Position numbers and translations under genes: made by a program. From Brasilonema sennae CENA114 (lineage in GTDB: Bacteria; Cyanobacteriota; Cyanobacteriia; Cyanobacteriales; Nostocaceae), in assembly GCF_006968745.1 (NCBI RefSeq), contig NZ_CP030118.1, positions 4,104,674-4,168,673 of the forward strand: DNA of 64,000 nucleotides, given 5' to 3'. The notes under the pieces are model-generated. The model worked only from the letters and a program-made list of their open reading frames with translations, was not told the DNA's origin and did no database searches. Position 1 is the first letter of the stretch; each line of letters starts with the position of its first letter. Below, piece by piece: positions 32,413 through 58,760 of the stretch.

Positions 32413-32476
32413 ACAATATCCGACTTGATCGGACTTCAAGATCCGACTTTGCCGACTAGCCCATAAGGGTGTCTAT
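32413..32476. repeat. Third copy of the GTCGGA-rich arm
   Basis: ATCCGACTTGATCGGACTTC and AAGATCCGACTTTGCCGACT, then AGCCCATAAGGGTGT. It matches, with about seven differences, the right arm of the long inverted repeat at 34250-34569, in the same orientation as that arm. Confidence 0.6.
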
Positions 32477-32746
32477 TTAGTAACTTTGCATACAACTAGC
32501 AAATATCAGACTTATGTAGATAAAAATTTTCGACAAGGTATAATCGACCTTAAAGATCAAAGAATTTCAGGGTGCGACAATAACCTTCTTTAATCACTTT
32601 TGAGAATAAAAATCGATGGCTGTTTGTAGTAAGCGCTGACTACTAACCTAGACAAAAGTCTCTAAATACAGGGATAACAGATTTTTATATGACAAGAGTA
32701 ATCAAAGAGGAATAAATACCTTATCAATACAGATGCATACTCACCC

Positions 32747-33901
32747 ATGTTCTTTGAAACAGCACTGCAACTTATAGAAGCTAACCTTGAAACCAAGACG
32801 GGGAAACATCTGACATCCCCAGAAAAAGAAATCCTCAAAGCTGCTTGGAACAACGAACCATATAACACAGTCGCCGATAGCTTATACTTGAGTGTGGGGT
32901 ATATCAAAGACTTAGCTTATCCCTTGTGGCAGCAGCTTTCAGACTTATTCGAGAAAAAAGTCACCAAGAATAACTTTCGCAATATACTCACTGAGCAAAG
33001 TGCCAAATCCATTCTCACTCCAACAGAAATCGCAGCCTGCGATATTGAGCAAAATTTAGATCCCAAAGGCAATATATTAATTCTTGATGATGTGGTAGAG
33101 AACTTGCAGGTGCTCACAGAGATATTAACCAAAAAAGGTTACAAAGTTCGCTGCGTTACCAACGCTGTGATGGCATTCAAGACAATCAACCATAACCCGC
33201 CTGATGTGATTTTGTTGGATATTAAAATGCCTTCGATGGATGGCTACCAAGTTTGCGCAACACTGAAAGCCGATGTCGAATCCGCACAAATACCCGTTAT
33301 TTTCTTAAGCGCCCTAGAAGAAACTATCGATAAAATTAAAGCCTTTGAAATAGGGGGATTGGACTATATCACAAAACCCTTTGAGCCTGAAGAAGTCATT
33401 GCCCGAATACAAACCCAACTCACTATCCAACAACAAAAGCGCCAACTACGAGAAGAAATTCAGCAACATCAACAAACCGCAGAAATTCTCTACCAATCTC
33501 GCGCCCTCCTCGCGAGTGTATTAGACACTTCCCGAGATGGAATTGCAGCTATGCAGGTGGTAAGAGATATGACTACTGGGGAAGTAGAAGACTTTCGCTA
33601 TCTGGTAGTTAATCCCGCACTAGCCAAATTATTGGGCAAAAAACGAGAAGATCTGATGGGTACATCCATGCAGAAAACACGATTTAATCAACTCATTCCT
33701 AGATTATTTGATTTATTAGCCCAGGTCGTAGAAACAGGACAAGCACTAGAGCAAAAGTTTTACTGGTCAAATGATAATATTCAAAAATGGTATGACTTGA
33801 CTGCTATTAAATTGGGAGATGGCTGTTCAATTAACATCCGTCAAATTTCAGAAATCCACCAGATGAATTCTCCGTTGACGCAAATAGCGAATTTGGTTTG
33901 A
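32747..33901 (+). CDS. vMAP-type HTH / response-regulator receiver / PAS protein
   Basis: 384 residues. The N-terminal helical domain (about 1-90: ALQLIEANLETKTGKHLTSP, EKEILKAAWNNEPYNTVADS, LYLSVGYIKD) matches the winged-HTH module found at the start of many cyanobacterial vMAP and STAND-ATPase proteins. A receiver domain follows (about 104-220): ILILDDVVENLQVL, phospho-acceptor Asp in ILLDIKMPSMDG, Lys in DYITKPF. After a coiled coil comes a C-terminal PAS-like domain (about 255-370, SVLDTSRDGIAAMQVV). No output enzyme. It probably receives phosphate from an unlinked kinase and passes it by protein contact. The fusion of this HTH to a receiver is unusual. Confidence 0.72.
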   Translation: MFFETALQLIEANLETKTGKHLTSPEKEILKAAWNNEPYNTVADSLYLSVGYIKDLAYPLWQQLSDLFEKKVTKNNFRNILTEQSAKSILTPTEIAACDIEQNLDPKGNILILDDVVENLQVLTEILTKKGYKVRCVTNAVMAFKTINHNPPDVILLDIKMPSMDGYQVCATLKADVESAQIPVIFLSALEETIDKIKAFEIGGLDYITKPFEPEEVIARIQTQLTIQQQKRQLREEIQQHQQTAEILYQSRALLASVLDTSRDGIAAMQVVRDMTTGEVEDFRYLVVNPALAKLLGKKREDLMGTSMQKTRFNQLIPRLFDLLAQVVETGQALEQKFYWSNDNIQKWYDLTAIKLGDGCSINIRQISEIHQMNSPLTQIANLV

Positions 33902-34184: not shown

Positions 34185-34249
34185 AGTCATAGCTCCTTTT
34201 AGGCAGTAGCAAAAGTCCTCGATCTACTATTTGTATTTACATTACCAAT

Positions 34250-34569
34250 CTCACACCTTTGTATGCTAGTCGGTAAAGTCGGATCTTAAAGTCGGATCTA
34301 GTCGGAAAATTTTTCTTAATCGATTTGAACTCTACCCCTCATGACTCGTAAATGTTCCGGGGGAGGGTAGAAGTGCGATCATCTTTCAGACGGGCGCTGC
34401 GCAAACTCTTTTTTCCTTTCACGAAATAAATTTATGTCGCTCCTGGTATCTTCTAGATAGCGGGTTTCTCAACGATTATTTTCCCAGCAAAGTTTATGTG
34501 AAAATAAGATTTTCCGACCTGATCCGACTTTAAGATCCGACTTTACCGACTAGCATACAAAGGTGTGAG
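34250..34569. repeat. Long inverted repeat, about 65-base arms
   Basis: The left arm (about 34250-34315) begins CTCACACCTTTGTATGCTAG and continues TCGGTAAAGTCGGATCTTAA. The right arm (about 34505-34569) is its near-perfect complement ending GCATACAAAGGTGTGAG. The roughly 190-base centre has no ORF. MITE-like or a structured RNA. A third arm copy is at 32413. Confidence 0.7.
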
Positions 34570-34650
34570 TCTGATAAGTATATATATAACCAGCAAATAC
34601 AGTTGGTTAATCTATTTAGAGACGGGGTTGGAAGGGATTTTAGAAGGTTT

Positions 34651-35639: not shown

Positions 35640-38600
35640 CTATTCAGTTAAATACAAAATCTTATCAAACTGAAACTTATTCATCCAATCCCTAAGAGTC
35701 ATGATCTCAAAACTATAAAATGCAGGAATTTCGTCAATGAGTCGAGCAACCAATTCCGCATCAGCATCAAGAGCAGCGTCATGCAATTTAACAATCCATT
35801 GCTTGGGCATTTCTGCTAGTAAATCAGATAAATTAAACGCTTCTTCCGGCATGTCACCTGGTCGTTTAGAGAGTTCTATATACTCATAAAGATAGCTCAC
35901 TCCCAGATATTTTTTCATCACATCAAAAAGGATTTGTTCTTGAAATGGTTTTCGCACAAAATCATCACAACCAGCCGACAAAATAACCACCTTTTCTTCT
36001 TCTAACGCACTGGCTGAAAGAGCAATCACAACAGTGGCTTGACCTTTTGTCGTGCTTTTAATGCGTTTAGTAGCTTCAAAACCATCTATAACGGGCATTT
36101 GCATATCCATCCAAATCAGATGGGGAGACCATGATTCCCAAATTTCAATAGCTTCTTGACCATTAGTAGCTTCTTGTAGCGCAAAACCAACAGGTTGGAA
36201 GAGTCTAACTAATAATTGACGATTATATGTATCATCATCCACCACGAGTAAGCGATATTTTGGCTGGTTGGGAGCGAGCGAAATAACACGACGCTTTTGG
36301 GGTTGCTTGTCAATTTCGCTCGGCTCAACGTTCCCGACTTGAATATCAAATTGAAATGTTGTACCTGCTTTTAAGAAAGTAGTTGTGTCATCGTTAAATT
36401 CCCTAATAGGATTTTCAGGATGGAAAATTTTTCCACCACTAATAACTGTTATTTCACCACCCATTAAACGGATAAATTGACGGCTAATAACTAATCCTAA
36501 TCCCGTTCCTTGTTGCAGCTTTTGTCCTGATGTAGTTTGTACAAAGGGTTGGAATAGTTGAGCAAATTCGCTTGGTTCAATACCAATACCCGTGTCTTGA
36601 ACTTCAAAGGTAATTGAGTATTGAGCGTTCAAAAGAGGTGAATTTTTCCCTATTTCTTGTTCCCTGCGATGCACTGAGCTTGTCGAAGTGTTCCCTGTTA
36701 AACGTTCCCTATTTCCTGTTTCCACCTTGACTGATACACTTCCAGAATCAGTAAACTTAATCGCATTACCGATGATATTAATCAGCACTTGTCGCAACTT
36801 AACTTCATCTGTGCAAATATATTGATCAACATCAGCAGCGCATTCAAATTGTAACTGTAAGCCCTTATCTTTGGCTGACAAAAGAAATATATTTTCTAAA
36901 TCTATTAGGAAAGTTTTGAGATTGAAATTATTTAAGGATAGCGTCATGCGTCCCGCTTCAATTTTGGATAAGTCAAGCACCTGGTTGATGAGAGTTAGCA
37001 AGTGTTCTCCACTGCGATGAATGTTCTTGAGGTTTTCTTGTTGTTTCGGTGAGAGATTTGTGTCTTGGTTCATCAGTTGAGAAAAGCCCAAAATAGCATT
37101 CAAAGGAGTTCGTAATTCGTGACTCATGTTAGCGATAAAAATACTTTTAGCAAGGTTCGCAGCTTCTGCTAACTCTTTCGCCTTTGCGAGTTCTGCTTCT
37201 GTTTGCAAGCGGGTGACAACTTCCGACTCTAACTGTGCATTAGCTTGCGCCAGTTCGGTTGTACGTTCATGCACTTTTAGTTCTAAGGTTTGGTTGTAGT
37301 TTGTCATTAATGCTTCGGCTTGCTTTCGCACAGTTATATCTTGAAAAACAGCGATCGGATACTCCACTGCACCACTACAATCAAAAATTGGCGTGCTGGT
37401 CACTTCTAGAAAAATGATACGATCAGTTTGGTGTAGTTCTAAATCGTCTGCTGTGACTTTTTCACCCCCCAGACTACGCATGATAGGTAGTTCTGCAGTT
37501 GGGTAGATTTGTCCCGTACCTGCTCGATAAACATGGTATTGTTCTGATAATTGCTCTTTAGTAGCTGTTGGGAAATCTTGAATGTTAAGTAACTGCTGGG
37601 AAGTTTGATTGGTGTAGATGAGTTTTCCTGTGAGATCGCGGATAGAGATTCCCACTGGAATGGCATTTAAGAATTGATTGAGACGGTTTTGATTTGACTG
37701 GACTTGAGCATAAAGTCTGGCGTTGGTAATGGCGATCGCTGCTTGAGTAGATAGCAGTTGAATGATTTCTAATCGCTGTGGTGTAAATACGTGAGTGGCT
37801 AAATTATTTTCTAAGTAAACAGCGCCAATCAGTTGTCCATGATTCAGCACAGGAAAACACAAAATAGATTTAGGCTGGCGTACTGTGATGTAGGAGTCAT
37901 AGAGATTTTGAATTTTTAGCTTCCTGGTTTCTACTTGCGAATGCGGATTTTGAATTTGATTAAATGCGTCACCCAAAACAATAGTTTCTTTAGTGCGGGC
38001 AACATAATAAATAATAGACGTAGGTAAACAAGTTTCAATAGCAATAGACTGCAATACTGTAATCTGCTCATTTTCAGTGTTACCTGATGCTTCTACCCTG
38101 AGTTCACCATCTTTTTCTAAAATTAAATAACCAGTTTGTGCCCCAGCATTTTCCAACAAGATTTTCATCAAAGTAGAAAGCAGTTTATTTAACTCAATTT
38201 CGCTGGTAATAGCAAAGGATGCTTTCATCAATGTTGCTATATCTAAAGCTGACTCTAAATTATTGCCAGTTGACCGATTTGGTAGACTGGTGCGTGTGTC
38301 AATGAAGGTATTTTCTGTTGTTACTTTTTGGAAAAATTTTGGATAGCGTGACTCTAAATCTTCAACTTTAGCTATTGCTCCCCACAGTTCATAACAGTAG
38401 TGAGCTTCTTGAAAATAAGTTTGAGCAATTTTCTCTTTACCCCATGCAAGGTAAAACTTAGCAGCTAGTTCATTGGCTAGGGCTTCTTCGTTGAGGTATT
38501 CATTTTGTTTGGCAAGAGCAATAGCTTTTTCATAATAGTCTATTGCCTTGAGGTTTTTACCAGAAACTCGATGTCGCTCTGCTTCCACTAGATAGAATTT

Positions 38601-41600
38601 ATGCAGGTGAGTCATGGGAGCAAAATACGCCCATTTTTTGAGCTTTTTCTGGTTCGATCTAACCTTATGGAGGACAAGTTTTTGTTCAGAGGAGGAGATA
38701 TCAGTATAGATAGCAAGATGGACTAAAGAATTGTAGAAGTGAGACAGAGGAATTGTTCCTAAAGCACTGTCAAGATTTTTTTCGACTAACTGAGCATTTT
38801 CTAAAGCTTGCTGATAGTCTTGAAAAAGATAACCGAGAACTAATTTGTAAAAATAGAGGGCATGACAGATATTCTGAGCATTTGCTTCTAAATGTAGGGG
38901 TAACATTTTGATTTCGTCATAGCTTTCACCAATTAAACTGCACTTCTTTTCAGTGCGTCCTATCAAGTTCAATACAAGCTGTCGATTGAGTTGGTTATAA
39001 TAAAAAGCTGTTTTTTGTTTGAGTTGGCTGAGGGTATGACTGTACGTTGCCATCTCTTGCTCGATTGTTGCCAAGTCCTTACCCAATACATAGGAATGGT
39101 AGGAGTATACGCAGGCTGAATAAGCGGCATATTCTAAATCTCCAGTCTCCAAACCAATCGAGTAAGCATCCAACAAAGGGGTTAAGGTATTCCTAAGATG
39201 CTCTTTCCAATGATTGATAAAGTAATTAACGATAAATAACGTCCTAGCTTTGAGTTCTTTATCATTAAACTTATCGAGCAACCTAAGAGCCAATTGACCG
39301 AATTGATAACCAGTTTCAATATCTCCTACAGCTTCACCACAAAGAATTAATCCGTAAGCGGCATAACCATAGGCAGACACAGAAGTATTGCCGTATTTGA
39401 GTGATAGATTGACCTGTTTCAACACCAGCAGCCCAAGCAGTTCAGGTGAGGCAAAGTAGGCAGCAGAGGCTACACGCGATAGGATACGCATAGCTGCTAG
39501 CTTGTAAGGGTTCGTCATTGCTGGCAGGTTGATTAAATCTTCGACTCGTTTCCCTACCAAAGCTAACTTTGTCCTCACCAGTTCAAGTAAAATATCTAAT
39601 TTATTTGGCTTTTTTGGAAAGCTAATTCCCAACAGCTTCAAGACTGAAAGTCCCGTCTTGATCCCTTCCAATGGTTTATTGTAGACTGTGCAAGCTTGAA
39701 TCTTTACTTCATATATCTTCACTTTATCCAAAAGTGTTCTGGCTTGTTGTAGTACAACAAAAGCTAATCTCTCCATTTCCTCAAAGTCGCCACTCAAGAT
39801 AGCAGCTTCTGCTGCTTCCACATAGACTGTCAGAGTTAGATCATACTGACGAATCCAGCTATCTACCGAAAGACAATTCATGCCAATTCTTAAGTAGTTC
39901 CAAGCTGGTTTCCAAGCGGCTGAAGCCTTCGCTTTTTGACCAGCCATGAGATTTAATTGAGCGAGTTTATCCTTTTCTAACTGAACGTCTATTGCTTCAA
40001 TACCGAAGTTGAGTTGATTGACAATATCAAAAATCTTTTGTTGGAGTACCTCTTGCGGGGTATTTTTGCACAAAAATTGCCCGACTTTCCAGTGAACGGC
40101 TTGTTTGTTGTCTGGAGGAATTAGGGAATAGGCAGCTTGCTGAATGCGATCATGAGCAAATTTATAAATAATTTTTAATTCGTTCAATTCTCGGTCTGTT
40201 TGAAGAAATTTGTAATCATCTCCGACAGGTAATATCAATCCCGCTTGCATGGCATCCCATAATTCATTAGTCGTTTCTTTTTGAGGTTTTTCATTAATAA
40301 TTGACAGCGTTTTCACATCAAATTGGTTTCCAATACAAGCGGCTAACCGTAAAACGTTTTGTGTTGACTCTGATAAGCTTTGAATCTTTTCACACATTAA
40401 TTCCACAACATTATCAGTAATATTTCGAGATATAATTTGTTTTAAATCCCAAGACCAAGCCCGAGAATTACTATCATATTTGAGTAATTTTTCCGTATAA
40501 AGTGACTTCAAAAACTCTTTAATAAAGAAGGGATTTCCCTGTGTTTTTTCCCAAACCAACTCGGCTAATCTTTGAGTAGGGAGGCACTCAGCCTTTAACG
40601 TATCTGCAATGAATTCATTCACCTGGTTTAAATTTAGGGGTGAAAGAGAAAGATGGTTAATGAGTGCCCCCTGGTTGTTCATTTCAGATAAAGTCAGCAT
40701 AACAGGATGAGTTGCGCTGACTTCGTTATCTCGATAAGCTCCAATCAAAAATAGATATTTAGTGTTAGTATGAATCATTATCTGTTGAAGCAATTGCAGC
40801 GTGGCGCTGTCTGTCCATTGAAGATCATCTAGAAATAGAACGAGGGGATGCTGTTTTTGACTACATACCTGGATCAAGTTTTGAAAAACTAAATTAAACC
40901 GATTTTGTGCTTCTATTGGAGGAAATTTGGGTACGAGATGCTGTTTGCCAATAATCAGTTCAATTTCTGGAATGACATCAATAATAATTTGTGCGTTGAC
41001 TCCTAATACTGCTACAATCTTCTGCTGCCAGTGTTGTAACTGAGCTTCAGTTTCGGTCAGCAATTGTCGCACTAATTCTTGGAATGCAGCAATTAAAGCT
41101 TGATAAGGAATATCGCGGTTAAGCTGGTCAAATTTACCCGCAATAAAGTATCCGCGTTTTTGAGTAATGATCTGGTAAATTTCTTGGACTAAAGCTGATT
41201 TTCCAATTCCAGCAGATCCAGAAATGAGCATAAGTTCTGTTTGTCCTTGCGTGACTCGCTCAAAGGCAGTAAATAAGGACTCAATTTGTGATTTTCTGCC
41301 GTAGAGTTTTTCAGGAATTTGTAAGTTATCATTAATATCTTGGCATCCCAAAGTAAAAGTTTTGATTTCACCTGTTTGATATTGAGTCAGACAAGTTTCT
41401 AAATCTCCCTTGATTCCCCAAGCGCTCTGATATCGCTCGTCTGCTGTTTTTGCCATTAACTTCATGACAATTTCTGAGATATTCAAGGGAATGTCTGCAT
41501 TAACTGCATGAGGAGGTATCGGTTGTTTAGCAATATGGCAATGTATCAACTCAAGTGCATCCACAGATTCAAATGGAACCTGAGTAGTGAGCAATTCATA

Positions 41601-42197
41601 AAAAGTGACACCAAGAGAATAGAAATCGGTGCGGTAATCGAGCGATCGATTCATCCTGCCTGTTTGTTCTGGAGAAATATAAGCTAATGTTCCTTCTATA
41701 ACATTAGGACTTTTGAGGCTGGTATTCTCTTTTAAGAAAATGCTAGACAAGCCAAAATCAATTAATTTTAATTGTCCAGTTTGAGGATTTAAGACAATAT
41801 TGGATGGATTAATATCTTTGTGAATGATATTAATTTGATGAAGTTGTCCTAAGATATTTGTTATTTGGATAGCAATGCAGAGAAACTCTGCTAAAGAAAA
41901 GGGACGCTGTTCCAGCAGTATTTTTAAAGATTCGGCTCCAAAATCTTCTAACAATATAAATTGTGTGTTCTGGTATTTTCTTAACTCGTAGGCTTTAATC
42001 GTTCCCTCTAAATTGAGATGACTAGTGATTTCGTATTCTTGCTGATATCGATAAAGTTCGGCAGGCGTGGGATAATCCTCTTTAAGAAGTTTTAAAATCA
42101 AAGGTTGCTGATTCTTCTTGAAGACAGCTTTGTAAACGAGAGTATTAGCACTTTCGTAGATTTTGCTGACAATTGTAATATCTGGCAATGAAATCAT
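35640..42197 (-). CDS. Giant Ser/Thr kinase - AAA ATPase - GAF - PAS - histidine kinase - receiver protein
   Basis: 2185 residues. Order: protein-kinase domain (about 10-270; HKDINPSNIVL catalytic loop, DFG as LIDFGLSS), AAA_16/STAND-like ATPase (about 295-560; P-loop GSAGIGKSALVQE, Walker B LVLFLDDLQW), a long helical TPR-like region (about 600-1290), GAF (about 1325-1480), PAS (about 1500-1620), coiled coil, HisKA with His in NMSHELRTPLNAI (about 1689), ATPase (N-box INIIGNAIKFT, G1 DTGIGI, G2 GTGLGLVIS), and a receiver (about 1985-2100; Asp in MDMQMPVIDG, Lys in FVRKPF). This matches the cyanobacterial HstK-type hybrid family, which joins eukaryote-like and two-component signalling. A repeat is inserted in frame in the ATPase domain between strand and G1 box. 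No transmembrane helix. Confidence 0.9.
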   Translation of the reverse strand: MISLPDITIVSKIYESANTLVYKAVFKKNQQPLILKLLKEDYPTPAELYRYQQEYEITSHLNLEGTIKAYELRKYQNTQFILLEDFGAESLKILLEQRPFSLAEFLCIAIQITNILGQLHQINIIHKDINPSNIVLNPQTGQLKLIDFGLSSIFLKENTSLKSPNVIEGTLAYISPEQTGRMNRSLDYRTDFYSLGVTFYELLTTQVPFESVDALELIHCHIAKQPIPPHAVNADIPLNISEIVMKLMAKTADERYQSAWGIKGDLETCLTQYQTGEIKTFTLGCQDINDNLQIPEKLYGRKSQIESLFTAFERVTQGQTELMLISGSAGIGKSALVQEIYQIITQKRGYFIAGKFDQLNRDIPYQALIAAFQELVRQLLTETEAQLQHWQQKIVAVLGVNAQIIIDVIPEIELIIGKQHLVPKFPPIEAQNRFNLVFQNLIQVCSQKQHPLVLFLDDLQWTDSATLQLLQQIMIHTNTKYLFLIGAYRDNEVSATHPVMLTLSEMNNQGALINHLSLSPLNLNQVNEFIADTLKAECLPTQRLAELVWEKTQGNPFFIKEFLKSLYTEKLLKYDSNSRAWSWDLKQIISRNITDNVVELMCEKIQSLSESTQNVLRLAACIGNQFDVKTLSIINEKPQKETTNELWDAMQAGLILPVGDDYKFLQTDRELNELKIIYKFAHDRIQQAAYSLIPPDNKQAVHWKVGQFLCKNTPQEVLQQKIFDIVNQLNFGIEAIDVQLEKDKLAQLNLMAGQKAKASAAWKPAWNYLRIGMNCLSVDSWIRQYDLTLTVYVEAAEAAILSGDFEEMERLAFVVLQQARTLLDKVKIYEVKIQACTVYNKPLEGIKTGLSVLKLLGISFPKKPNKLDILLELVRTKLALVGKRVEDLINLPAMTNPYKLAAMRILSRVASAAYFASPELLGLLVLKQVNLSLKYGNTSVSAYGYAAYGLILCGEAVGDIETGYQFGQLALRLLDKFNDKELKARTLFIVNYFINHWKEHLRNTLTPLLDAYSIGLETGDLEYAAYSACVYSYHSYVLGKDLATIEQEMATYSHTLSQLKQKTAFYYNQLNRQLVLNLIGRTEKKCSLIGESYDEIKMLPLHLEANAQNICHALYFYKLVLGYLFQDYQQALENAQLVEKNLDSALGTIPLSHFYNSLVHLAIYTDISSSEQKLVLHKVRSNQKKLKKWAYFAPMTHLHKFYLVEAERHRVSGKNLKAIDYYEKAIALAKQNEYLNEEALANELAAKFYLAWGKEKIAQTYFQEAHYCYELWGAIAKVEDLESRYPKFFQKVTTENTFIDTRTSLPNRSTGNNLESALDIATLMKASFAITSEIELNKLLSTLMKILLENAGAQTGYLILEKDGELRVEASGNTENEQITVLQSIAIETCLPTSIIYYVARTKETIVLGDAFNQIQNPHSQVETRKLKIQNLYDSYITVRQPKSILCFPVLNHGQLIGAVYLENNLATHVFTPQRLEIIQLLSTQAAIAITNARLYAQVQSNQNRLNQFLNAIPVGISIRDLTGKLIYTNQTSQQLLNIQDFPTATKEQLSEQYHVYRAGTGQIYPTAELPIMRSLGGEKVTADDLELHQTDRIIFLEVTSTPIFDCSGAVEYPIAVFQDITVRKQAEALMTNYNQTLELKVHERTTELAQANAQLESEVVTRLQTEAELAKAKELAEAANLAKSIFIANMSHELRTPLNAILGFSQLMNQDTNLSPKQQENLKNIHRSGEHLLTLINQVLDLSKIEAGRMTLSLNNFNLKTFLIDLENIFLLSAKDKGLQLQFECAADVDQYICTDEVKLRQVLINIIGNAIKFTDSGSVSVKVETGNRERLTGNTSTSSVHRREQEIGKNSPLLNAQYSITFEVQDTGIGIEPSEFAQLFQPFVQTTSGQKLQQGTGLGLVISRQFIRLMGGEITVISGGKIFHPENPIREFNDDTTTFLKAGTTFQFDIQVGNVEPSEIDKQPQKRRVISLAPNQPKYRLLVVDDDTYNRQLLVRLFQPVGFALQEATNGQEAIEIWESWSPHLIWMDMQMPVIDGFEATKRIKSTTKGQATVVIALSASALEEEKVVILSAGCDDFVRKPFQEQILFDVMKKYLGVSYLYEYIELSKRPGDMPEEAFNLSDLLAEMPKQWIVKLHDAALDADAELVARLIDEIPAFYSFEIMTLRDWMNKFQFDKILYLTE
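36655..36725. repeat. Repeat inserted in frame in the giant kinase ATPase domain
   Basis: 36666-36697 is the same 32-base sequence as 7451-7482 (TGCGATGCACTGAGCTTGTC, then GAAGTGTTCCCT), flanked by TTCCCTGTT/TTTCCTGTT units. It encodes the foreign-looking RERLTGNTSTSSVHRREQE between VKVETG and the SITFEVQDTGIGI strand, in a surface loop just before the G1 box. Confidence 0.7.
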
Positions 42198-48930: not shown

Positions 48931-49082
48931 ATATCATGTCCGGATCAACACTTATAAAAAACCAAGAACCTCGATTTCTGTATAAGTCAGCCTTGCTGAC
49001 ACCTATAAGAAGTATGGAACAGTTCCATTGACTGCTCTTGTTTGGGAATTATTCTGGAAGTTGTTAGAAGGTGCAGCCTTAT

Positions 49083-51287
49083 ATGATTCAACAAAGTGCA
49101 AAATCTAGCTCCAAATTCTTCGCCTTATTGATTGGGGTTGATTGCTATTTACCGAACATGCTACCACAAGGAGCTTCTTACAACAGTCTTGCTGGTTGTG
49201 TGCGCGATATTAATCATGTCGAATCTTTCCTGAGAAACAAACTGCAAGTACCCCCAGCACATATTCTTAAACTTACAGCTTCCAACTCTGACAGTCCCAA
49301 CATACCGCAAGAGCCATCCGAACAGCTACCTACATATGACAATATCGTAGCTAAATTTAAGCAACTCACTGATTTAGCTGAACCTCAAGACCAAGTCTAC
49401 ATCCACTACTCCGGACATGGTGGACGTTCGACAACAATTTATCCTGATCTCAAAGGAAGCTACGGGGTAGATGAATCACTTGTCCCTACAGACATTGGCA
49501 ATCCAGAAGCTCGTTATCTTCGTGATCTAGAGTTGGCAACACTCTTACAAAATATGGTAGATAAAGGGTTAGTGGTTACACTAGTTCTGGATAGCTGTCA
49601 TTCTGGAGGAGCAACACGAGGAGGAGTCAATGATGCTAATATTCGCGGTTTAAATAAGAATATTATAGACACAACGCCACGACCAACAGAAAGCTTAGTT
49701 GCATCAACTGAAGAATTGATCCAAAACTGGCAACAATTAACACACGGACAACAAAACACTCGCAACGTAACTGCAGCTAGTGGTTGGTTGCCTGAACCTA
49801 AAGGATATGTTTTATTGGCTGCTTGTCGGGATAATGAGTCTGCTTATGAATATGCTTTCAATGGTAAAGAAAACAATGGTGCGTTAACTTATTGGTTATT
49901 AGACTCTCTACAGAAGTTGGGGAATGATTGTACCTTTAAGGTACTCCACGATCGCATCCTCGCAAAGATAAACAGTCAGTTTCAACAACAAACACCAATG
50001 CTGCAAGGAGAAGGCGATCGCCTGCTCTTCAGCGGTAAATCTACAAAACCACAATCTGCCATTCTTGTCAAGAAAGTTGATGTGGCTTCTAATCAGGTAC
50101 TCTTGCAAGCAGGCGAAGCACAAGGTTTGCGTAAAGGTGCGGAGTTTGCCATCTATCAATTAGGCATAACCGATTTTTCCCAAACTGATAAACGAGTCGC
50201 ACTGGCTAAAGTTGTAAAAGTGCGTGCAGAAGAATCTATTGCGGAAGTTACCAAAATCCTGCGTCAAGAACAAGCAGGTAACAACTTGCGTCTTTATATT
50301 CCTCCTTCTAAAGCGGGTAATTCAACACAGCAAACTCTCAGTCAAGGAATTATTGAAGATGGTGCTTCTGCTATACTACTGTCTCCTAGTGTCAAACTTG
50401 TCCGAAAGGTACGCCTGTTGCCTCCTTTAGAAAATCAGCAACTACCAAAAGAAATAGATTATAAAGAAGCATTGACAGCAGTCAAAGCCGCTAAAGAAAA
50501 CGTAGAAGGCAATGGTTGGGTAGAGTTCTTATCTAGTGATCAACCGAGTGATGAACCTGTCACCTATCAGGTATCTGTCAACGCTGAAGGGGAATATGAA
50601 ATTCTGGATGCAGGTGGAGAATTAATTAATTTGCGCCCTCCACTCAAAGTAGACGAACACAATGCTGCAGCTAGTGTCGTTAACCGCTTAGTGCATCTTT
50701 CCAAGTATCAAGCGACTTTACAACTAGACAACAACGACCCAATATCATCATTTGCAGGAAAACTAAAAGTTGACATCTGCCTACCAGGAGAAACCAGAGG
50801 TGAATTATTACCATTAAATGCTCCAGGTAACGTCCCAACTTTTGACGTAGATGAATCTGCAATACTGCGTATCCGCAATGAATCAACCAAAGTTCTCAAC
50901 ATTACCGTACTGGCTATTCAACCAGATTGGAGTATTTCCCAGCTACACCCAAAAGGGGCTGCTGCCTTTGAACCGTTAGATCCGGGCAGGGAGAAAATGA
51001 TTCGCATCCAGACAAGCCTTTGTGAAGGTTATAACGAAAGTGCCGATGTTCTCAAAGTTTTTGCCACAGTTGGTGCAACGAATTTCCGGTGTCTTGAACT
51101 ACCAGCACTAGACAAACCTCGTAGGGGAACACAGGTATTTAGAGCAACTAACCCACTTGAAGAATTATTAGCAGCAGTTGCAAGTGTTCAACCCCCAAAT
51201 AGAAATATAAGTGCTGCGGCTTATCCCAGTGACAAATGGACAACAGAACAGGTGAAACTGGTGGTGAAGAAGATTGTTAATTGTTAA
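49083..51287 (+). CDS. Caspase-family protease (orthocaspase/metacaspase-like)
   Basis: 734 residues from ATG 49083 (AGAAGG about 10 bases upstream; an in-frame GTG at 49071 adds four residues). N-terminal C14 domain (about 10-290): FFALLIGVDCYLPN, catalytic His in VYIHYSGHGGRS (about 111), catalytic Cys in VTLVLDSCHSGGATRG (about 170), VLLAACRDNESAYEY. The C-terminal 440 residues are beta-rich with DUF4384-like sections (ILRIRNESTKVLNITVLAIQ, WSISQLHPKGAAAFEPL). Cyanobacterial orthocaspases cleave after Arg/Lys and are linked to stress and cell death. No signal peptide. It lies 182 bases upstream of the CHAT-STAND-WD40 gene on the same strand. Confidence 0.88.
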   Translation: MIQQSAKSSSKFFALLIGVDCYLPNMLPQGASYNSLAGCVRDINHVESFLRNKLQVPPAHILKLTASNSDSPNIPQEPSEQLPTYDNIVAKFKQLTDLAEPQDQVYIHYSGHGGRSTTIYPDLKGSYGVDESLVPTDIGNPEARYLRDLELATLLQNMVDKGLVVTLVLDSCHSGGATRGGVNDANIRGLNKNIIDTTPRPTESLVASTEELIQNWQQLTHGQQNTRNVTAASGWLPEPKGYVLLAACRDNESAYEYAFNGKENNGALTYWLLDSLQKLGNDCTFKVLHDRILAKINSQFQQQTPMLQGEGDRLLFSGKSTKPQSAILVKKVDVASNQVLLQAGEAQGLRKGAEFAIYQLGITDFSQTDKRVALAKVVKVRAEESIAEVTKILRQEQAGNNLRLYIPPSKAGNSTQQTLSQGIIEDGASAILLSPSVKLVRKVRLLPPLENQQLPKEIDYKEALTAVKAAKENVEGNGWVEFLSSDQPSDEPVTYQVSVNAEGEYEILDAGGELINLRPPLKVDEHNAAASVVNRLVHLSKYQATLQLDNNDPISSFAGKLKVDICLPGETRGELLPLNAPGNVPTFDVDESAILRIRNESTKVLNITVLAIQPDWSISQLHPKGAAAFEPLDPGREKMIRIQTSLCEGYNESADVLKVFATVGATNFRCLELPALDKPRRGTQVFRATNPLEELLAAVASVQPPNRNISAAAYPSDKWTTEQVKLVVKKIVNC

Positions 51288-51357
51288 ATAGCTAACAGCT
51301 AATTTGTTCTATTGGCTGTTAGCTATTTAATAATAGTAGAACTTAGGCAGAAGAGAT

Positions 51358-51402
51358 CCCCTAACCCCCTTAAAAAGGGGGCTTTTAAGGGGGTTAGGGG
51401 GG
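51358..51402. repeat. Palindrome CCCTAACCCCCTTAAAA...TTTTAAGGGGGTTAGGG
   Basis: Arms of about 17 bases between the caspase and CHAT-STAND genes. This is a very common cyanobacterial dispersed repeat. It could attenuate readthrough between the two genes. Confidence 0.75.
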
Positions 51403-51469
51403 ATGGAAGTTTCGGGTTTTCAGTGCGTAAGTCCTCAATAGGCTAGCTCTAAAACCTTTTCCAGATACC

Positions 51470-54400
51470 ATGAACAACTACACCCATGTCAAAACCATTT
51501 TAATTCTGGCAGCAAATCCGACAAGTACCTCAAGGCTACGACTTGATCAAGAAGTACGAGAAATTGATGAAGGATTGCGACGCGCTAACAAACGAGCAGA
51601 ATTCAAGTTAGAGCAAAAATGGGCGGTACGTCAGCGTGACTTCTACCGCGCCATGTTAGATTATCAGCCGCAAATTGTTCACTTCTGCGGACACGGTGCT
51701 GGGCAAGATGGTATTCTTTTGCAAGATGAAACAGGACAGCCTGCATTAATCTCCGGCGAAGCACTGGGGAGCATGTTTAAGCTGTTTGCCACTAAAGGAG
51801 TTGAATGTGTCCTTTTAAACGCTTGTTACTCCCAAATGCAAGCAGAAGCAATTCGCCAACACGTCAATTATGTGATTGGCATGAATTCGACAGTAGGGGA
51901 TAAAGCAGCTGTTGGTTTTGCTGTGGCGTTTTATGATGCGATCGCCGCCGGGGAAGAGGTACAGTTTGCCTATGATCTTGGTTGTTCTCAAATGATTGGT
52001 TTTTTGGAACAGCAGACTCCAGTACTGAGCAAAAAACAGTTAATTATCCCCACAGCACCTCAAACAGAAGTCATTCCTCCCAACCCATATCAAGGATTGT
52101 CTGCATTTGGGGAAGAAGATGCAGCATTCTTTTTTGGACGTGATACATTTGTAAATAGCTTAGTGCAAGCAACTCGCTCTCAGTCGTTGGTAGCTGTGAT
52201 TGGTCCTAGTGGGAGTGGCAAATCTTCGGTGGTGTTTGCTGGACTAATTCCACAGTTGCGAGGTGAAGGAAATTGGGTGATTGAATCCTTTCGTCCTGGT
52301 AATCAGCCATTTTATCAGCTTGCTTCTGTATTCGTGCGTCAATTAGAACCACCAGAAATTAGTGAAACTGAAAAATTGCGAGCAGCGGCTGGACTAGCAG
52401 CAGATATACAGCAGGGTAAAGTGACATTGCAGCAGGTAGTGTCTAGCATTAGAGAACGTAACTCAGATAAACGTTTTCTGTTGTTTGCCGATCAATTTGA
52501 AGAACTCTACACCCTTTGCCAGAAGGAAGAACAAGAACGCTTTACTGATACGTTACTCGAAGCTATCCATCAGAAAATTCTCACACTGGTTTTCACTTTA
52601 CGAGCTGACTTCTACGGCTATGTTCTCTCCTACCGCCCTTTTCGGGATGCATTGCAGGAGTTTACACCCCAGCTGGTAAGTTCCATGAGTCGGCAGGAAC
52701 TACAAGCAGCGATCGCCCTACCAGCCCAAAAGCTAGAAGTGCAATTTGAAGCACAATTACAAGAGCGAATCTTGGATGATGTGGGACTTGAACCGGGCAA
52801 TTTACCACTGTTGGAATTTGCTCTTACCCGATTATGGTCAAAGCAGGAAAACCGATTGTTAACTCACCAAGCATATACTGAAATTGGCGGTGTGAAAAAG
52901 GCATTAGCTAATCATGCCCAGCAGGTTTATAGTCAACTTAGCCAAACAGAGCAAAAGCAGGCACAGCGAATTTTTGTACAATTAGTGCGTCCGGGGGAAG
53001 GAACGGAAGATACTCGACGGCTGGCTACACGCAAAGAAGTTGGGGAAGAGAATTGGGGATTGGTAAGTTATTTAGCAGGATACCAAGCCCGTTTAGTTGT
53101 TACGGGACGCGATGACAACTCAGGAGAAGATACAGTAGAAGTTGTCCATGAAGCGCTGATTCGGGAATGGATAACTCTGCGCGAGTGGATGAATGCTAAT
53201 CGTCAGTTTCGCGTTTGGCAAGAACGGTTAAAAGTAGCAATGCTGGAGTGCAAAAGTAGCAATCATGATTCTGGGGCGTTGTTGCGAGGTGTGCCGTTAA
53301 CTGTAGCAGATGATTGGTTGCAAAAACGCTCAGATGAAATGACGCAGGAAGAGCGAGACTTTATTCAGGCTAGCGCAAGTCAACGAGTTCGGGAGAAGCA
53401 AGAACGCGATCGCACAAGACAACTAACAATTATCACACTCAGTAGCTTTTCTGCGGTAGCTCTAATTATAGCAGGCGTCGCTGGTGTGGGCTGGTGGAGT
53501 GCGGCAATCAGTCAAATTAATTCTCTTACTAATACTTCAGATGTCCTGTTGAACTCAGATCGGACAAAAGCCTTAAAAGCAAGTTTAAAAGCTGTTGTGC
53601 AAATGCAACATACACCCTTGGTAGATGCTAATACCCGCACACAGGTAGAACTGACATTACTGAATACAGTTGACAATGTTGCCGCACCGAACACCTTAGG
53701 AGGGCATACAGACTCGGTTTATGGCACGAGCTTCAGCCCGGATGGCAAAATGCTCGCTTCGGCAAGTGGTGACAACACGGTGAAACTGTGGGATACCGCC
53801 ACGCTCAAAGAAATGAAAACCCTGAGTGGGCATACAGACTCGGTTTATGGCACGAGCTTCAGCCCGGATGGCAAAATGCTCGCTTCGGCAAGTGGTGACA
53901 ACACGGTGAAACTGTGGGATACCGCCACGCTCAAAGTAATTAAAACCCTCAGTGGGCATAGAGACTCGGTTAATGGCACGAGCTTCAGCCCGGATGGCAA
54001 AATGCTCGCTTCGGCAAGTGGTGACAACACGGTGAAACTGTGGGATACCGCCACGCTCAAAGAAATGAAAACCCTGAGTGGGCATACAGACTCGGTTTAT
54101 GGCACGAGCTTCAGCCCGGATGGCAAAATGCTCGCTTCGGCAAGTGGTGACAACACGGTGAAACTGTGGGATACCGCCACGCTCAAAGAAATGAAAACCC
54201 TGAGTGGGCATACAGACTCGGTTAATGGCACGAGCTTCAGCCCGGATGGCAAAATGCTCGCAACGGCCAGTGGTGACAACACGGTGAAACTGTGGGATAC
54301 CGCCACGCTCAAAGAAATGAAAACCCTGAGTGGGCATACAGACTCGGTTTATGGCACGAGCTTCAGCCCGGATGGCAAAATGCTCGCTTCGGCAAGTGGT

Positions 54401-54544
54401 GACAACACGGTAAGACTGTGGAGATGGGATTATGATAATTTACTCAGGGAAGGGTGCGCGTTCATGGGTGAGTATTTCAAAACTAATCCCAAGGATGATG
54501 ATGCTGGTGAAATTGGCAGTATGTGCCGCGCAGTCAGTCGTTAG
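51470..54544 (+). CDS. CHAT protease - STAND NTPase - TM - WD40 protein
   Basis: 1024 residues. CHAT domain (about 5-195): catalytic His in VHFCGHGAGQDG (about 71) and Cys in CVLLNACYSQMQ (about 118). nSTAND1-type NTPase (about 205-520): NPYQGLSAFGEEDAAFFFGR, P-loop GPSGSGKSSVV (about 246), Walker B-like LLFADQFEEL. A helical/winged region (VVHEALIREWITLREWM, GALLRGVPLTVADDWLQKRS), then one transmembrane helix (ITLSSFSAVALIIAGVAGVG, about 655) and six WD40 blades of exactly 126 bases each (from 53697). A short conserved tail follows (YDNLLREGC, FMGEYFKTNP). Reading: WD40 repeats sense a ligand, STAND oligomerises, CHAT cleaves. Target unknown. Six blades is one short of a usual propeller. Confidence 0.88.
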   Translation: MNNYTHVKTILILAANPTSTSRLRLDQEVREIDEGLRRANKRAEFKLEQKWAVRQRDFYRAMLDYQPQIVHFCGHGAGQDGILLQDETGQPALISGEALGSMFKLFATKGVECVLLNACYSQMQAEAIRQHVNYVIGMNSTVGDKAAVGFAVAFYDAIAAGEEVQFAYDLGCSQMIGFLEQQTPVLSKKQLIIPTAPQTEVIPPNPYQGLSAFGEEDAAFFFGRDTFVNSLVQATRSQSLVAVIGPSGSGKSSVVFAGLIPQLRGEGNWVIESFRPGNQPFYQLASVFVRQLEPPEISETEKLRAAAGLAADIQQGKVTLQQVVSSIRERNSDKRFLLFADQFEELYTLCQKEEQERFTDTLLEAIHQKILTLVFTLRADFYGYVLSYRPFRDALQEFTPQLVSSMSRQELQAAIALPAQKLEVQFEAQLQERILDDVGLEPGNLPLLEFALTRLWSKQENRLLTHQAYTEIGGVKKALANHAQQVYSQLSQTEQKQAQRIFVQLVRPGEGTEDTRRLATRKEVGEENWGLVSYLAGYQARLVVTGRDDNSGEDTVEVVHEALIREWITLREWMNANRQFRVWQERLKVAMLECKSSNHDSGALLRGVPLTVADDWLQKRSDEMTQEERDFIQASASQRVREKQERDRTRQLTIITLSSFSAVALIIAGVAGVGWWSAAISQINSLTNTSDVLLNSDRTKALKASLKAVVQMQHTPLVDANTRTQVELTLLNTVDNVAAPNTLGGHTDSVYGTSFSPDGKMLASASGDNTVKLWDTATLKEMKTLSGHTDSVYGTSFSPDGKMLASASGDNTVKLWDTATLKVIKTLSGHRDSVNGTSFSPDGKMLASASGDNTVKLWDTATLKEMKTLSGHTDSVYGTSFSPDGKMLASASGDNTVKLWDTATLKEMKTLSGHTDSVNGTSFSPDGKMLATASGDNTVKLWDTATLKEMKTLSGHTDSVYGTSFSPDGKMLASASGDNTVRLWRWDYDNLLREGCAFMGEYFKTNPKDDDAGEIGSMCRAVSR
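53697..54420 (+). repeat. Six near-identical 126-bp WD40 repeats (first CHAT-STAND gene)
   Basis: Each unit encodes [42 protein letters not shown]. Units differ by only a few bases, far less than expected for old repeats. They are also close to the units at 57655-58760. Because the unit is a multiple of three with few stops on either strand, it also creates a long spurious antisense frame. Confidence 0.9.
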
Positions 54545-54545
54545 C

Positions 54546-54692
54546 TCGACTTTATCCAAAATTAAGAACTTGTTGGAGTCAGAAATTGCCACTTGGGAGA
54601 AACAGCGTAATTCTCAACAAGCCAGTGTGAATTGGCGCTTTCAAACCACGGATGCACGGAGAAAGATGGAGCGGTTATACCCAACTGTTTGA
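54546..54692 (+). pseudogene. IS630-family transposase C-terminal remnant
   Basis: One frame reads LSKIKNLLESEIATWEKQRN, SQQASVNWRFQTTDARRKME, RLYPTV, stop. The VNWRF(Q/T)TTDAR.K..RLYP ending is the hallmark C-terminus of cyanobacterial IS630 transposases. No upstream catalytic DDE part is present; it abuts the stop of the CHAT-STAND gene. Confidence 0.75.
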
Positions 54693-56256
54693 CCTATCAA
54701 ACTTACTTTGGTGGACTACTAGTGCATAAGTTGATTTTGCTTGCAGCTAATTAAAGAAGGAAGGGCAGCAAATAAGTCTGGTTTACATAATCATCACAGA
54801 GAAATCTATGAGCAATGGTGATGGAAGAATGCATCATCAAATGAGCAAGACGGTTATTATAAATATGGGAAGCGGTGATTTATATCAGGGATTTCCCAGA
54901 GTAACAGCTCAGTTATGGAAAGAAGGTAATCTATTGCCAGAGCAGTTTCTTGGCAGCTTACCTCCAGCACCACATTTGGTTGAACTGTGTAGAAATTGGC
55001 AGTCAAATTATCAGAGTCTGTGCGATCGCCAACAGTTACGTTTTCAAGGCGAGGACGATGATGAACTCGAAATTGATGCAGATGGTGTCACCAACGTCTC
55101 TGTCCTGAGCTTTAATGATTTATGCCATAACCTACAACTAGGCATCAACCAGTGGCTAAGCTCCGATGACTATCTCAATATTAGTCTCCAACTGCGATCG
55201 CATCTACACCCACTAGAAGAAATTCGGGTGATGATGGAAACCAATGATGACTTGCTACGGCGATTACCCTGGCATCGCTACGATTTTTATCGGGATTATC
55301 CTCGGGCAGAAATGGCTCTTTGTCAATCCGAGTATAAACAAGCTCAATTATCACAACGACGCAACGGCGACAAAGTTAGAATTTTAGCTGTTTTGGGCAA
55401 TAGCAAGGGCATCGACTTGGAAGCAGAAACTAGATTTCTCCTCAGCTTACAAGATGCAGAAGTTGTGTTTAGAGTCAATCCCACACGTCAGGAATTAAAC
55501 ACACAACTTTGGGACGTGCGAGGCTGGGATATCCTCTTTTTTGCCGGACACAGTCGAACTGAGGGTAAAACAGGCAGAATTTATATCAATGAGAATAAGA
55601 CAAATAACAGCTTAACAATTGAACAATTAGAGGAAGCTCTCAAAGCAGCCATTGAAAAAGGTTTGCAATTAGCTATATTTAATTCTTGTGATGGGCTGGG
55701 ATTGGCGTTGGCTTTGGAGAACTTACATATTCCTAGCGTAATTGTCATGCGCGAGCCGGTGCCAAATCTTGTCGCACAGGAATTTTTTAAATATTTTCTG
55801 CAGGGTTTTGCACTTGAGCGGCTGTCATTTTATTTAGCAGTGCAACAAGCACGTAGAAAGCTACAAGGTTTGGAAGATGATTTTCCTGGTGCTTCTTGGT
55901 TGCCTGTAATTTGCATTAATCCAGCAGTAGAACCACCGACTTGGCTCAAGTTAGGTGGGATTCCCCCTTGTCCCTACCGAGGTTTATTTGCCTTCCGCGA
56001 GGAAGATGCACACCTATTCAAAGGGCGGGAACAGTTTACTCAACAATTGCTCCGTGCAGTGAAAAGAAAGCCGTTAGTAGCTGTGGTAGGTCCAAGTGGA
56101 AGTGGTAAATCTAGTGTAGTGTTTGCTGGATTAATTCCCCAGTTGCGGCTTGAAAACAATGTTCGGTGGCAAATTGTCTGGTTTCGTCCGGGTAACAATC
56201 CTATTGAAGCATTAGCAGTGGCGATTGCACCTCAAATGCATTCACTAACAACCGAG

Positions 56257-56325
56257 GCTTCGCATCACAGCGCTGGTTCTGTGGCTTCGCCACAGAACCA
56301 GAACAGGACGGGCAACATGCCCATC
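56257..56325. repeat. Hairpin repeat inserted in frame in the STAND domain
   Basis: CTGGTTCTGTGG (56273-56284), CTTCG, CCACAGAACCAG (56290-56301): a perfect 12-bp stem, followed by GACGGGCAACATGCCCATCC. It encodes SAGSVASPQNQNRTGNMPIP, absent from the paralogue at 51470, in a loop of the NTPase domain. Confidence 0.7.
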
Positions 56326-57654
56326 CCACAAGATAATGACGATAACCAGCGCTTAGTAGAAATGGAACTAGAAATTGCGCTGCGGCAAGACAAAAAAGCG
56401 TTATCTAAAGTAATAGAAAAAATTGTACAGCGTGGCGTACGCTTACTACTAATAGCTGACCAGTTTGAAGAACTTTACACCCTTAGCCCAGAGTCAGAAC
56501 GTCAGTTTTTGTTGGATGCATTGCTAACTGCAAGCGATCGCGCTCCCAAGTTTACTCTAGTTTTAACCTTGCGAGCCGACTTTTTCGGACATGCCCTATC
56601 TTATCGCCCATTGAGCGATGCCTTGCAGGGAGCAGTCCAGAACTTAGGACCAATGAGCCGTCAGGAATTGCGTAAAGCAATTGAAGAACCAGCAGCGCAA
56701 ATGCAAGTGGGTCTGGAAAAAGAGTTGACAAATAAACTCATTTCTGATGTTAAAGAACAATCAGGAAGCTTACCGTTGTTAGAGTTTGCCTTAACTGAGC
56801 TATGGTCAAAACAGAAATATGGGTTGCTGACTCATTCGGCTTACGAAGAAATTGGCGGCGTAGAGGAGGCTTTGGCTAATCATGCAGAGTCGGTTTATGC
56901 TGAGGTAGATGAAGCTGACCAAATCAGGACACAGCGGTTGTTCATGCAGTTAGTATGTTTAGGAGAAGGGGCAGAGGCTACTCGCAGAATAGCAACTCGT
57001 GATCAGGTAAACTTAGAAAACTGGGATTTAGTGACACGCTTAGCGTCAACGCGATTGGTGGTAACAAACCGCAACTCCTCCAATGAAGAAACCGTGGAAA
57101 TCGTGCATGAGGCGCTGATTAGAAGTTGGGGACGCTTACAGCATTGGATACAAGTAGACGGTGAATTTCGCCGTTGGCAAGAACAACTGCGGGCGACAAT
57201 GCGGCAATGGGAAACCAGCGGCTTTGATTCTGGGGCGCTGTTGCGGGGTGTGCCGTTAACTGTAGCAGAAGATTGGTTGCAAAAACGCTCAAATGAAATG
57301 ACGCAGCAAGAGCGAGACTTTATTCAGGCTAGCGCAAGTCAACGGGATCGGGAGAAGCTTGAACGCGATCGCCGCAGGCAACTAACAATTATCACACTAG
57401 GTAGCTTCTCTGCGGTAGCTCTAATTTTAGCAGGCGTTGCTGGCATGGGCTGGTGGAATGCCGCAATCAGTCAAATTACTTCTCTTACTATTACTTCAGA
57501 TGAGCTGCTAAACTCTGATGGGGCAAAAGCTTTAAAAGCAAGTTTAAAAGCTGTTGTGAAAATGCAACATACACCCTTGGTAGATGCTGATACCCGCACG
57601 CAAGTAGAACTGACATTACTGAATACAGTTGACAATGTCGCAGCACCTAACAAT

Positions 57655-58760
57655 TTGGGAGGACATACAAACACGGTTAATGGCGTCAACTTCAGCCCAG
57701 ATGGCAAAATCCTGGCAACTGTAAGTAGTGACAAGACGGTGAAACTGTGGAATCCCGCTACTGGTCAAGTCATTAAAACCCTGAGTGGGCATACAAACAT
57801 GGTTTCTGGCACGAGCTTCAGCCCGGATGGCAAAATCCTGGCAACTGCTAGTTGTGACAAGACGGTGAAACTGTGGGATACCGCCACGCTCAAAGAAATT
57901 AAAACCCTGAGTGGGCATACAAACTCGGTTTATGGCACGAGCTTCAGCCCGGATGGCAAAATCCTGGCAACTGCTAGTGGTGACAAGACGGTGAAACTGT
58001 GGGATACCGCCACGCTCAAAGAAATTAAAACCCTGAGTGGGCATACAAACTGGTTTGGGGCACGAGCTTCAGCCCGGATGGCAAAATGCTCGCAACGGCC
58101 AGTGGTGACAACACGGTGAAACTGTGGGATCCCGCTACGGTCAAGTCATTAAAACCCTGAGTGGGCATACAAACATGGTTTCTGGCACGAGCTTCAGCCC
58201 GGATGGCAAAATGCTGGCAACTGCTAGTTTAGACAAGACGGTGAAACTGTGGGATCCCACTACTGGTCAAGTCATTAAAACCCTGAGTGGGCATACAAAC
58301 ATGGTTTCTGGCACGAGCTTCAGCCCGGATGGCAAAATGCTGGCAACTGCTAGTTTAGACAAGACGGTGAAACTGTGGGATCCCACTACTGGTCAAGTCA
58401 TTAAAACCCTGAGTGGGCATACAAACATGGTTTCTGGGCACGAGCTTCAGCCCGGATGGCAAAATCCTGGCAACTGCTAGTGGTGATAAGACGGTGAAAC
58501 TGTGGGATACCGCCACGCTCAAAGAAATTAAAACCCTGAGTGGGCATACAGACGCGGTTGTTGGCACGAGCTTCAGCCCGGATGGCAAAATGTTGGCAAC
58601 TGCTAGTTATGACAACACGGTGAAACTGTGGGATACCGCCACGCTCAAAGAAATTAAAACCCTGAGTGGGCATACAGACGCGGTTGTTGGCACGAGCTTC
58701 AGCCCGGATGGCAAAATCCTGGCAACGGCAAGTTTTGACAAGACGGTGAGACTGTGGAGA
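57655..58760 (+). repeat. WD40 repeat array of the second CHAT-STAND gene
   Basis: Nine 126-base units (two with one base lost, one with one base gained) that alternate between [10 protein letters not shown] and NPATGQ/DPTTGQVIKT linkers. Long stretches such as GGCACGAGCTTCAGCCCGGA are identical to those in the first gene. Confidence 0.88.

Follow-up and report, generated by a model that had tools for sequence, protein, structure and literature searches.

The window analysed here is a stretch of 64,000 nt from the 8.2-Mb genome of Brasilonema sennae CENA114, and the locus in question consists of a response regulator gene, in which a helix-turn-helix (HTH) domain stands ahead of a receiver and a PAS-like domain, and a convergent gene for a large hybrid histidine kinase (Table 1). 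The earlier note on this DNA had read the regulator ORF as HTH, receiver and PAS, and this layout proved to be real. The receiver matches Pfam Response_reg (residues 110-222, E 3.8e-27), its model closely matches solved receivers in a fold search and the alignment reveals the full set of phosphorylation residues (D114, D115, D158, S188 and K210). The PAS_4 match at residues 282-360 (E 1e-4) remains marginally below the Pfam cut-off with 23.0 compared to 23.1 bits, but the beta-rich domain in the AlphaFold model fits this assignment. For residues 1-93, AlphaFold predicts five helices with a mean pLDDT of 87.7, while the model of the whole regulator has a mean pLDDT of 83.2 and a pTM of 0.45 and is unreliable in the relative placement of the domains. 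Pfam recognizes no catalytic output domain in the regulator, and residues 1-90 could be assigned neither to a Pfam family above threshold nor to any model of NCBIfam or PADLOC. A weak NB-ARC match at residues 61-136 (E 0.003) lies below the cut-off, straddles the border between HTH and receiver and was judged to be due to chance, and the PADLOC matches of the regulator (E 1e-6 and weaker), which are located on or beside the receiver, were rejected as evidence of a defence function. The gene is flanked by a MITE-like element with a 72-nt inverted repeat (34242-34313 and 34506-34577, 92% complementary, 192 nt between the arms), and a third arm related to this repeat is found upstream of the gene at 32419-32505.

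Table 1. Features of the regulator-kinase locus (positions in the window)
Feature	Position	Strand	Extent	Basis
HTH-REC-PAS response regulator gene	32747..33901	+	384 aa	
N-terminal STAND-associated HTH, predicted NarL-like; five predicted helices, H5 to about residue 90	32747..33004	+	residues 1-86	
Receiver domain	33071..33421	+	residues 109-225	Pfam, conserved residues, fold search
Codon of predicted phosphoacceptor aspartate D158	33218..33220	+		sequence and alignment
Long helix joining receiver and PAS	33386..33529	+	residues 214-261	AlphaFold model
PAS-like domain	33530..33844	+	residues 262-366	Pfam PAS_4 just below cut-off; AlphaFold model
Convergent hybrid kinase, proposed phosphodonor	35640..42197	-	2185 aa	Pfam; recurrent neighbour

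The next large gene, at a distance of 1.7 kb from the regulator gene, encodes a protein that combines Ser/Thr kinase, AAA_16 ATPase, GAF, PAS, HisKA, HATPase_c and receiver domains with a conserved helical tail, and it is the gene listed previously as STAND-like at 35.6 kb. Clustering of the neighbouring genes demonstrated that this kinase recurs beside the regulator. To count these cases we used 32 distinct family members with a readable receiver, which remained from 36 aligned family ORFs after L052, L056, L059 and L073 had been dropped on account of receivers that run off the contig or lack parts. A histidine kinase adjoins the regulator in 18 of the 32 members, 17 of which were recognized by HMM match, while the 18th (L055) is represented by a 111-aa kinase C-terminus at the end of the contig. 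The convergent neighbour in L047 was considered as a kinase as well and rejected, since it is a ComEC-type competence protein. Throughout the 17 kinases compared, the last 560 residues are orthologous and the tail is common, with the other 16 being 48-69% identical to the kinase of the window. The front ends are of the Ser/Thr kinase-AAA_16 type in 11 loci (by phmmer), of the REC-PAS type in L050 and, judged by length and start, likewise in L051 and L058, and of the dCache-HAMP-PAS type in L071. In L049 and L099 the kinase gene, with a Ser/Thr kinase-AAA_16 front end, is located upstream of the regulator gene on the same strand. The distance between both genes is mostly below 1 kb, and apart from the 1.7 kb in the window it reaches 3.2 kb in L048, where the genes lie around an insertion. 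Since the linkage has been kept through sensor exchange and rearrangement, it argues for a working pair of regulator and kinase, and we consider the conserved partnership suggested by these observations to be the most useful new point of our analysis. About five further kinases of the same type are encoded in the same genome, and hence cross-talk is possible. The earlier suggestion that two-component signals feed into the HTH protein is thus supported, both by the intactness of the receiver and by the kinase that recurs next to the gene.

When 84,980 species genomes were scanned using an HTH alignment, 37 loci were obtained, all of which are cyanobacterial, so that within the genomes searched the family is confined to cyanobacteria. 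HTH and receiver are present in 29 of these loci, some of which are cut by contig ends or interrupted. As for the others, L069 shows the HTH alone at a contig end, in L057, L066 and L067 the HTH is accompanied by PAS-GGDEF, encoded either by a single ORF or by two, L072 is an HTH-NB-ARC-WD40 protein and L074-L076 combine the HTH with a nuclease-like domain, which is PD_DExK according to PADLOC in L075. Identity to the window regulator amounts to 40-68% for full-length members, and residues 1-90 are conserved in the orthologues. The HTH is carried by 90 of 99 genomes of relatives, and among the loci read from these 99 the receiver form occurs in at least about 11 genomes. No description of an HTH-receiver-PAS family with its kinase was found in the literature searched, which is a weak negative as subscription papers fell mostly outside this search. 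Several loci display unusual gene structures. In L102 (7962-9177), HTH and receiver are encoded in two overlapping ORFs that meet at a proline run, either by a frameshift or by a split of the gene. A transposase-like insertion interrupts the regulator gene of L048 (8001-11600), whose PAS part resumes 3 kb further on, and L056 terminates near its contig end in the same odd letters as this interrupted regulator. The HTH-PAS-GGDEF protein of L057 (8001-9257) has no receiver, and an output role of its HTH is therefore unlikely; its GGDEF signature reads RGGQF and is possibly inactive.

The phosphorylation site of the receiver is intact in 26 of the 32 members and degenerate in six: D158 is replaced by glycine in L040, the acidic pair is lost in L061, and L064, L065 and both regulators of L063 have a glutamate in place of the aspartate together with a broken acidic pair. 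The two L063 genes, both with degenerate receivers, are arranged as a tandem duplication of the HTH-receiver-PAS gene (L063:6526-9176). Based on a list of kinases compiled by hand from neighbour readings, a kinase adjoins 18 of the 26 intact members versus none of the six degenerate ones (Fisher p 0.0033 with members counted as independent). However, the six degenerate receivers go back to about three independent losses, and a tree-aware test contains only two to three independent pairs, none of them in the opposite direction, a number with which significance is unreachable, so that the association of kinase adjacency and receiver integrity is suggestive only. The eight intact members that have no adjacent kinase speak against the pairing of kinase and regulator. 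The HTH of the degenerate members is 61-76% identical to that of the nearest intact member, i.e. about as similar as the rest of the protein.

The HTH of the regulator is homologous to that of NLR-like STAND proteins, as had been claimed before. Four other proteins of the same genome share it, giving five copies in total: an NB-ARC-WD40 protein (L006, the best match with 39% identity and E 5.2e-12) and three AAA_35 proteins, one of them with CHAT. We surveyed 69 HTH proteins, which are best-scoring or hand-picked matches and not a random sample, and 47 of them carry an NB-ARC, NACHT or AAA_35 NTPase. By phmmer against a few reference domains, with a Pfam check on nine proteins, 27 were classed as NB-ARC-type (seven with WD40), 18 as AAA_35, three as nuclease-like, three as receiver and one as GGDEF, while 17 matched none of them. 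Among these 17, L037 is a NACHT protein, L159 an NB-ARC protein and L191 contains DUF3102, and about ten are short and on reading appear to possess a second HTH. L029 and L183 harbour an FGE-sulfatase domain (by Pfam and by similarity, respectively), and the fusions of the HTH therefore comprise NB-ARC, AAA_35, NACHT, FGE-sulfatase, nuclease-like and GGDEF domains. The genes at 4.3, 35.6, 51.5 and 54.8 kb, pointed out earlier as STAND-like, do encode P-loop/STAND-type NTPase domains, but none of them bears the HTH, which occurs only once in the window; partners with the same HTH are hence not to be found there. A cluster at 49071-58119, made up of a Peptidase_C14 caspase-like protein followed by two CHAT-nSTAND1-WD40 proteins, likewise is devoid of the regulator's HTH.

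The HTH had previously been labelled as vMAP-type. We take PF26355 to be the vMAP N-terminal HTH. None of the 20 VMAP-C loci read (out of 34 VMAP-C matches listed) carries the HTH of the regulator at E values up to 10, and the label is thus unsupported. Among the Pfam models searched, the window protein and its HTH likewise gave no match to an effector-associated domain (EAD) at E 1. One EAD-like trait is present, as the HTH occurs in multiple copies per genome that are joined to NTPases and varied effectors. In the parts of the 2020 STAND/vMAP paper available to us, EADs are described as more alike within one genome than to copies elsewhere (PMC7159879). The best match of our HTH outside the family within its own genome scores 48-49 bits and is outscored by at least 30 of the matches listed for other genomes. 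The HTH thus shows no own-genome similarity excess over the copies in other genomes, contrary to one published mark of homotypic adaptors, which speaks against the adaptor reading.

Searching the PDB with the HTH profile retrieved NarL-family response regulators (best 4zmr, E 7.2e-5). The best structural match of the HTH model is the NarL-DNA complex 1je8 (Z 7.0, rmsd 2.6, 64 residues aligned; a Z below 8 can mean a common arrangement only), many NarL/LuxR domains tie with NarL and sigma-4 domains come next (3vfz, Z 6.1). Foldseek alone found no match of the HTH model at E 0.001, and folds missing from the VIA-align list were not counted as evidence. The GerE model matches neither the window protein nor its HTH; the relative L191 matches it at E 2e-4, which is below the cut-off, and L006 shows a weak match to Sigma70_r4_2 (E 0.017). 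The HTH is thus predicted to adopt a NarL-like fold. An ordinary DNA-binding HTH, which the earlier note had named as the finding that would contradict it, is in part what emerged, as the profile finds the NarL family and the model resembles NarL.

At one position of the recognition helix the HTH stands apart from LuxR-type domains. Position 55, which we take to be a base-contacting site in NarL, is aspartate or glutamate in 28/32 HTHs of the family, 23/27 of the NB-ARC type, 12/18 of the AAA_35 type and 13/17 others, versus 0/19 LuxR-type HTHs from this genome; it is a lysine in all three nuclease-fused HTHs. These controls are 19 of the 24 LuxR-type matches in the genome, the five partial or weak ones being left out. 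Tryptophan 61 is found in 31/32 family, 27/27 NB-ARC-type and 17/18 AAA_35-type HTHs and in 0/19 LuxR controls. The mean net charge of residues 19-69 amounts to -1.41 in the family (n = 32) compared to +1.42 in the LuxR controls (n = 19; Mann-Whitney p 8e-7, members counted as independent). The adjacent position 54 is basic (K or R) in all 32 members. The acidic position 55 and the net negative charge favour a protein rather than DNA as the more likely target of the HTH, and its fusions to NB-ARC, AAA_35, NACHT, FGE-sulfatase, nuclease-like and GGDEF domains as well as the receiver-less L057 protein also count towards this.

Upstream of the regulator, a divergent ECF-type sigma gene lies within 1 kb in 8 of the 29 loci whose upstream sequence extends for 1.5 kb or more (L040, L044, L046, L047, L053, L054, L061 and L064; Pfam check on L044), both in loci with and in loci without a kinase neighbour. 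This arrangement would also suit a transcription regulator. No sigma or anti-sigma gene was recognized beside the window regulator, the closest relative of the linked sigma factor in the window genome has only 29% identity, and upstream alignments inspected by eye revealed no operator-like block common to the clades. Sigma factors of cyanobacteria were surveyed in 2024, and in the portion accessible to us NB-ARC, WD40 and AAA_35 are named as accessory domains found on sigma-70 proteins (PMC11119718). In our view some of these cases may represent the HTH described here, read as sigma region 4, to which its relative in L006 bears a weak resemblance.

For a protein of this domain make-up, with an intact phosphorylation site, a STAND-type HTH and recurrent linkage to an orthologous kinase, we put forward, at close to even confidence, that it is the response regulator of the adjoining hybrid histidine kinase and that its HTH docks onto protein rather than DNA. 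The kinase would pass its phosphate to D158, and phosphorylation might be relayed via the long helix and then the PAS domain to alter how the N-terminal HTH is exposed or paired, with the PAS domain probably adding dimerization or a second input. As the only recognizable output of the regulator, the HTH would most likely dock onto protein partners; plausible candidates are other carriers of this HTH, for instance the NB-ARC-WD40 and AAA_35 NTPases encoded elsewhere in the genome. A more specific version appears unlikely to us, namely a phosphorelay-gated NLR adaptor, in which the regulator is phosphorylated by the Ser/Thr-His hybrid kinase, itself equipped with a STAND-like ATPase, and the HTH pairs with its counterpart on NB-ARC-WD40 or AAA_35 proteins and sets their activation threshold.

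The strong rival to a protein adaptor is DNA binding, which we regard as a serious though somewhat less probable possibility: the protein would be a kinase-phosphorylated transcription regulator whose NarL/LuxR-like HTH has moved to the N-terminus and acts, for example, on the divergent sigma promoter where present. The NarL/LuxR fold and profile matches and the basic residue kept at position 54 speak for DNA and against a protein adaptor, and so does the precedent of the SARP/AfsR regulators, in which NB-ARC proteins carry N-terminal DNA-binding domains. The sigma gene next to eight regulators fits DNA binding as well, but this sigma factor lacks a close counterpart in the window genome, inspection by eye revealed no operator-like block common to the clades, a Z below 8 may reflect a common arrangement only, and in most members position 55 of the recognition helix is acidic in a domain of net negative charge on average, unlike in the LuxR controls. 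It is also conceivable, albeit improbable, that the HTH is an input or localization module by which the regulator is tethered to an NTPase with an HTH, while the receiver serves as a phosphate sink or tunes the kinase. The regulator has no catalytic output, L057 joins the HTH to PAS-GGDEF in the absence of a receiver and the members with degenerate receivers keep an HTH as similar as the rest of the protein, all of which is consistent with an input role; the docking is however purely hypothetical, and a phosphate sink needs no conserved HTH. We consider it very improbable that the protein acts as a PhyR-like sigma mimic whose sigma-region-4-type HTH competes for a sigma or anti-sigma factor. 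The HTH is related to the LuxR/sigma-4 group, as seen in the 3vfz and L006 matches, and an ECF-type sigma gene is linked at some loci, but the regulator has no sigma region 2 and the window gene has neither a recognized sigma or anti-sigma neighbour nor a close relative of the linked sigma factor elsewhere in its genome.

Our preferred reading, a kinase-controlled regulator with a protein-docking HTH, points to an ordinary two-component signal that feeds the HTH adaptor family of STAND-type proteins. Little is established about the connection of NLR-like STAND proteins in bacteria with wider cell signalling, and a single-chain regulator that couples a phosphorylation switch to a STAND-protein HTH offers a direct experimental entry point. 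Moreover, filamentous cyanobacteria possess large dual Ser/Thr-His kinases, and for some of these the kinase linkage offers a regulator as partner.

When compared to known systems, the regulator resembles NarL/FixJ (LuxR-HTH) response regulators in its receiver, its related HTH fold and its proposed phosphorylation by a histidine kinase, but it differs from them in the N-terminal instead of C-terminal position of the HTH, the additional PAS domain, the failure to match the GerE model and the acidic residue of the recognition helix. The general stress regulator PhyR contains an N-terminal sigma-like/HTH module, composed of sigma regions 2 and 4, ahead of its receiver. The regulator shares this order of an HTH module and a receiver, whereas sigma region 2 is absent by Pfam, a PAS domain is added and the genomic context is different. 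The window kinase joins Ser/Thr kinase and histidine kinase modules like the dual HstK-type Ser/Thr-His kinases known in Anabaena, for which a response regulator with this HTH is not mentioned in the accessible part of the report (PMC2176072). Like the EADs of STAND/vMAP conflict systems, as far as these are covered in the available sections of PMC7159879 and PMC8195603, the HTH is a small, helical, non-enzymatic and usually terminal domain that is repeated and fused to NTPases or effector-like domains; unlike EADs, it has no Pfam EAD match, does not accompany VMAP-C and shows no similarity excess within the genome. Both papers, in the same sections, count receivers among the effectors, the 2020 paper with no histidine kinases among the vWA-associated effectors (PMC7159879) and the 2021 conflict-system paper with the receivers predicted to be kinase-independent (PMC8195603). 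The regulator family differs from these vWA/STAND-associated receivers in that it has a linked kinase.
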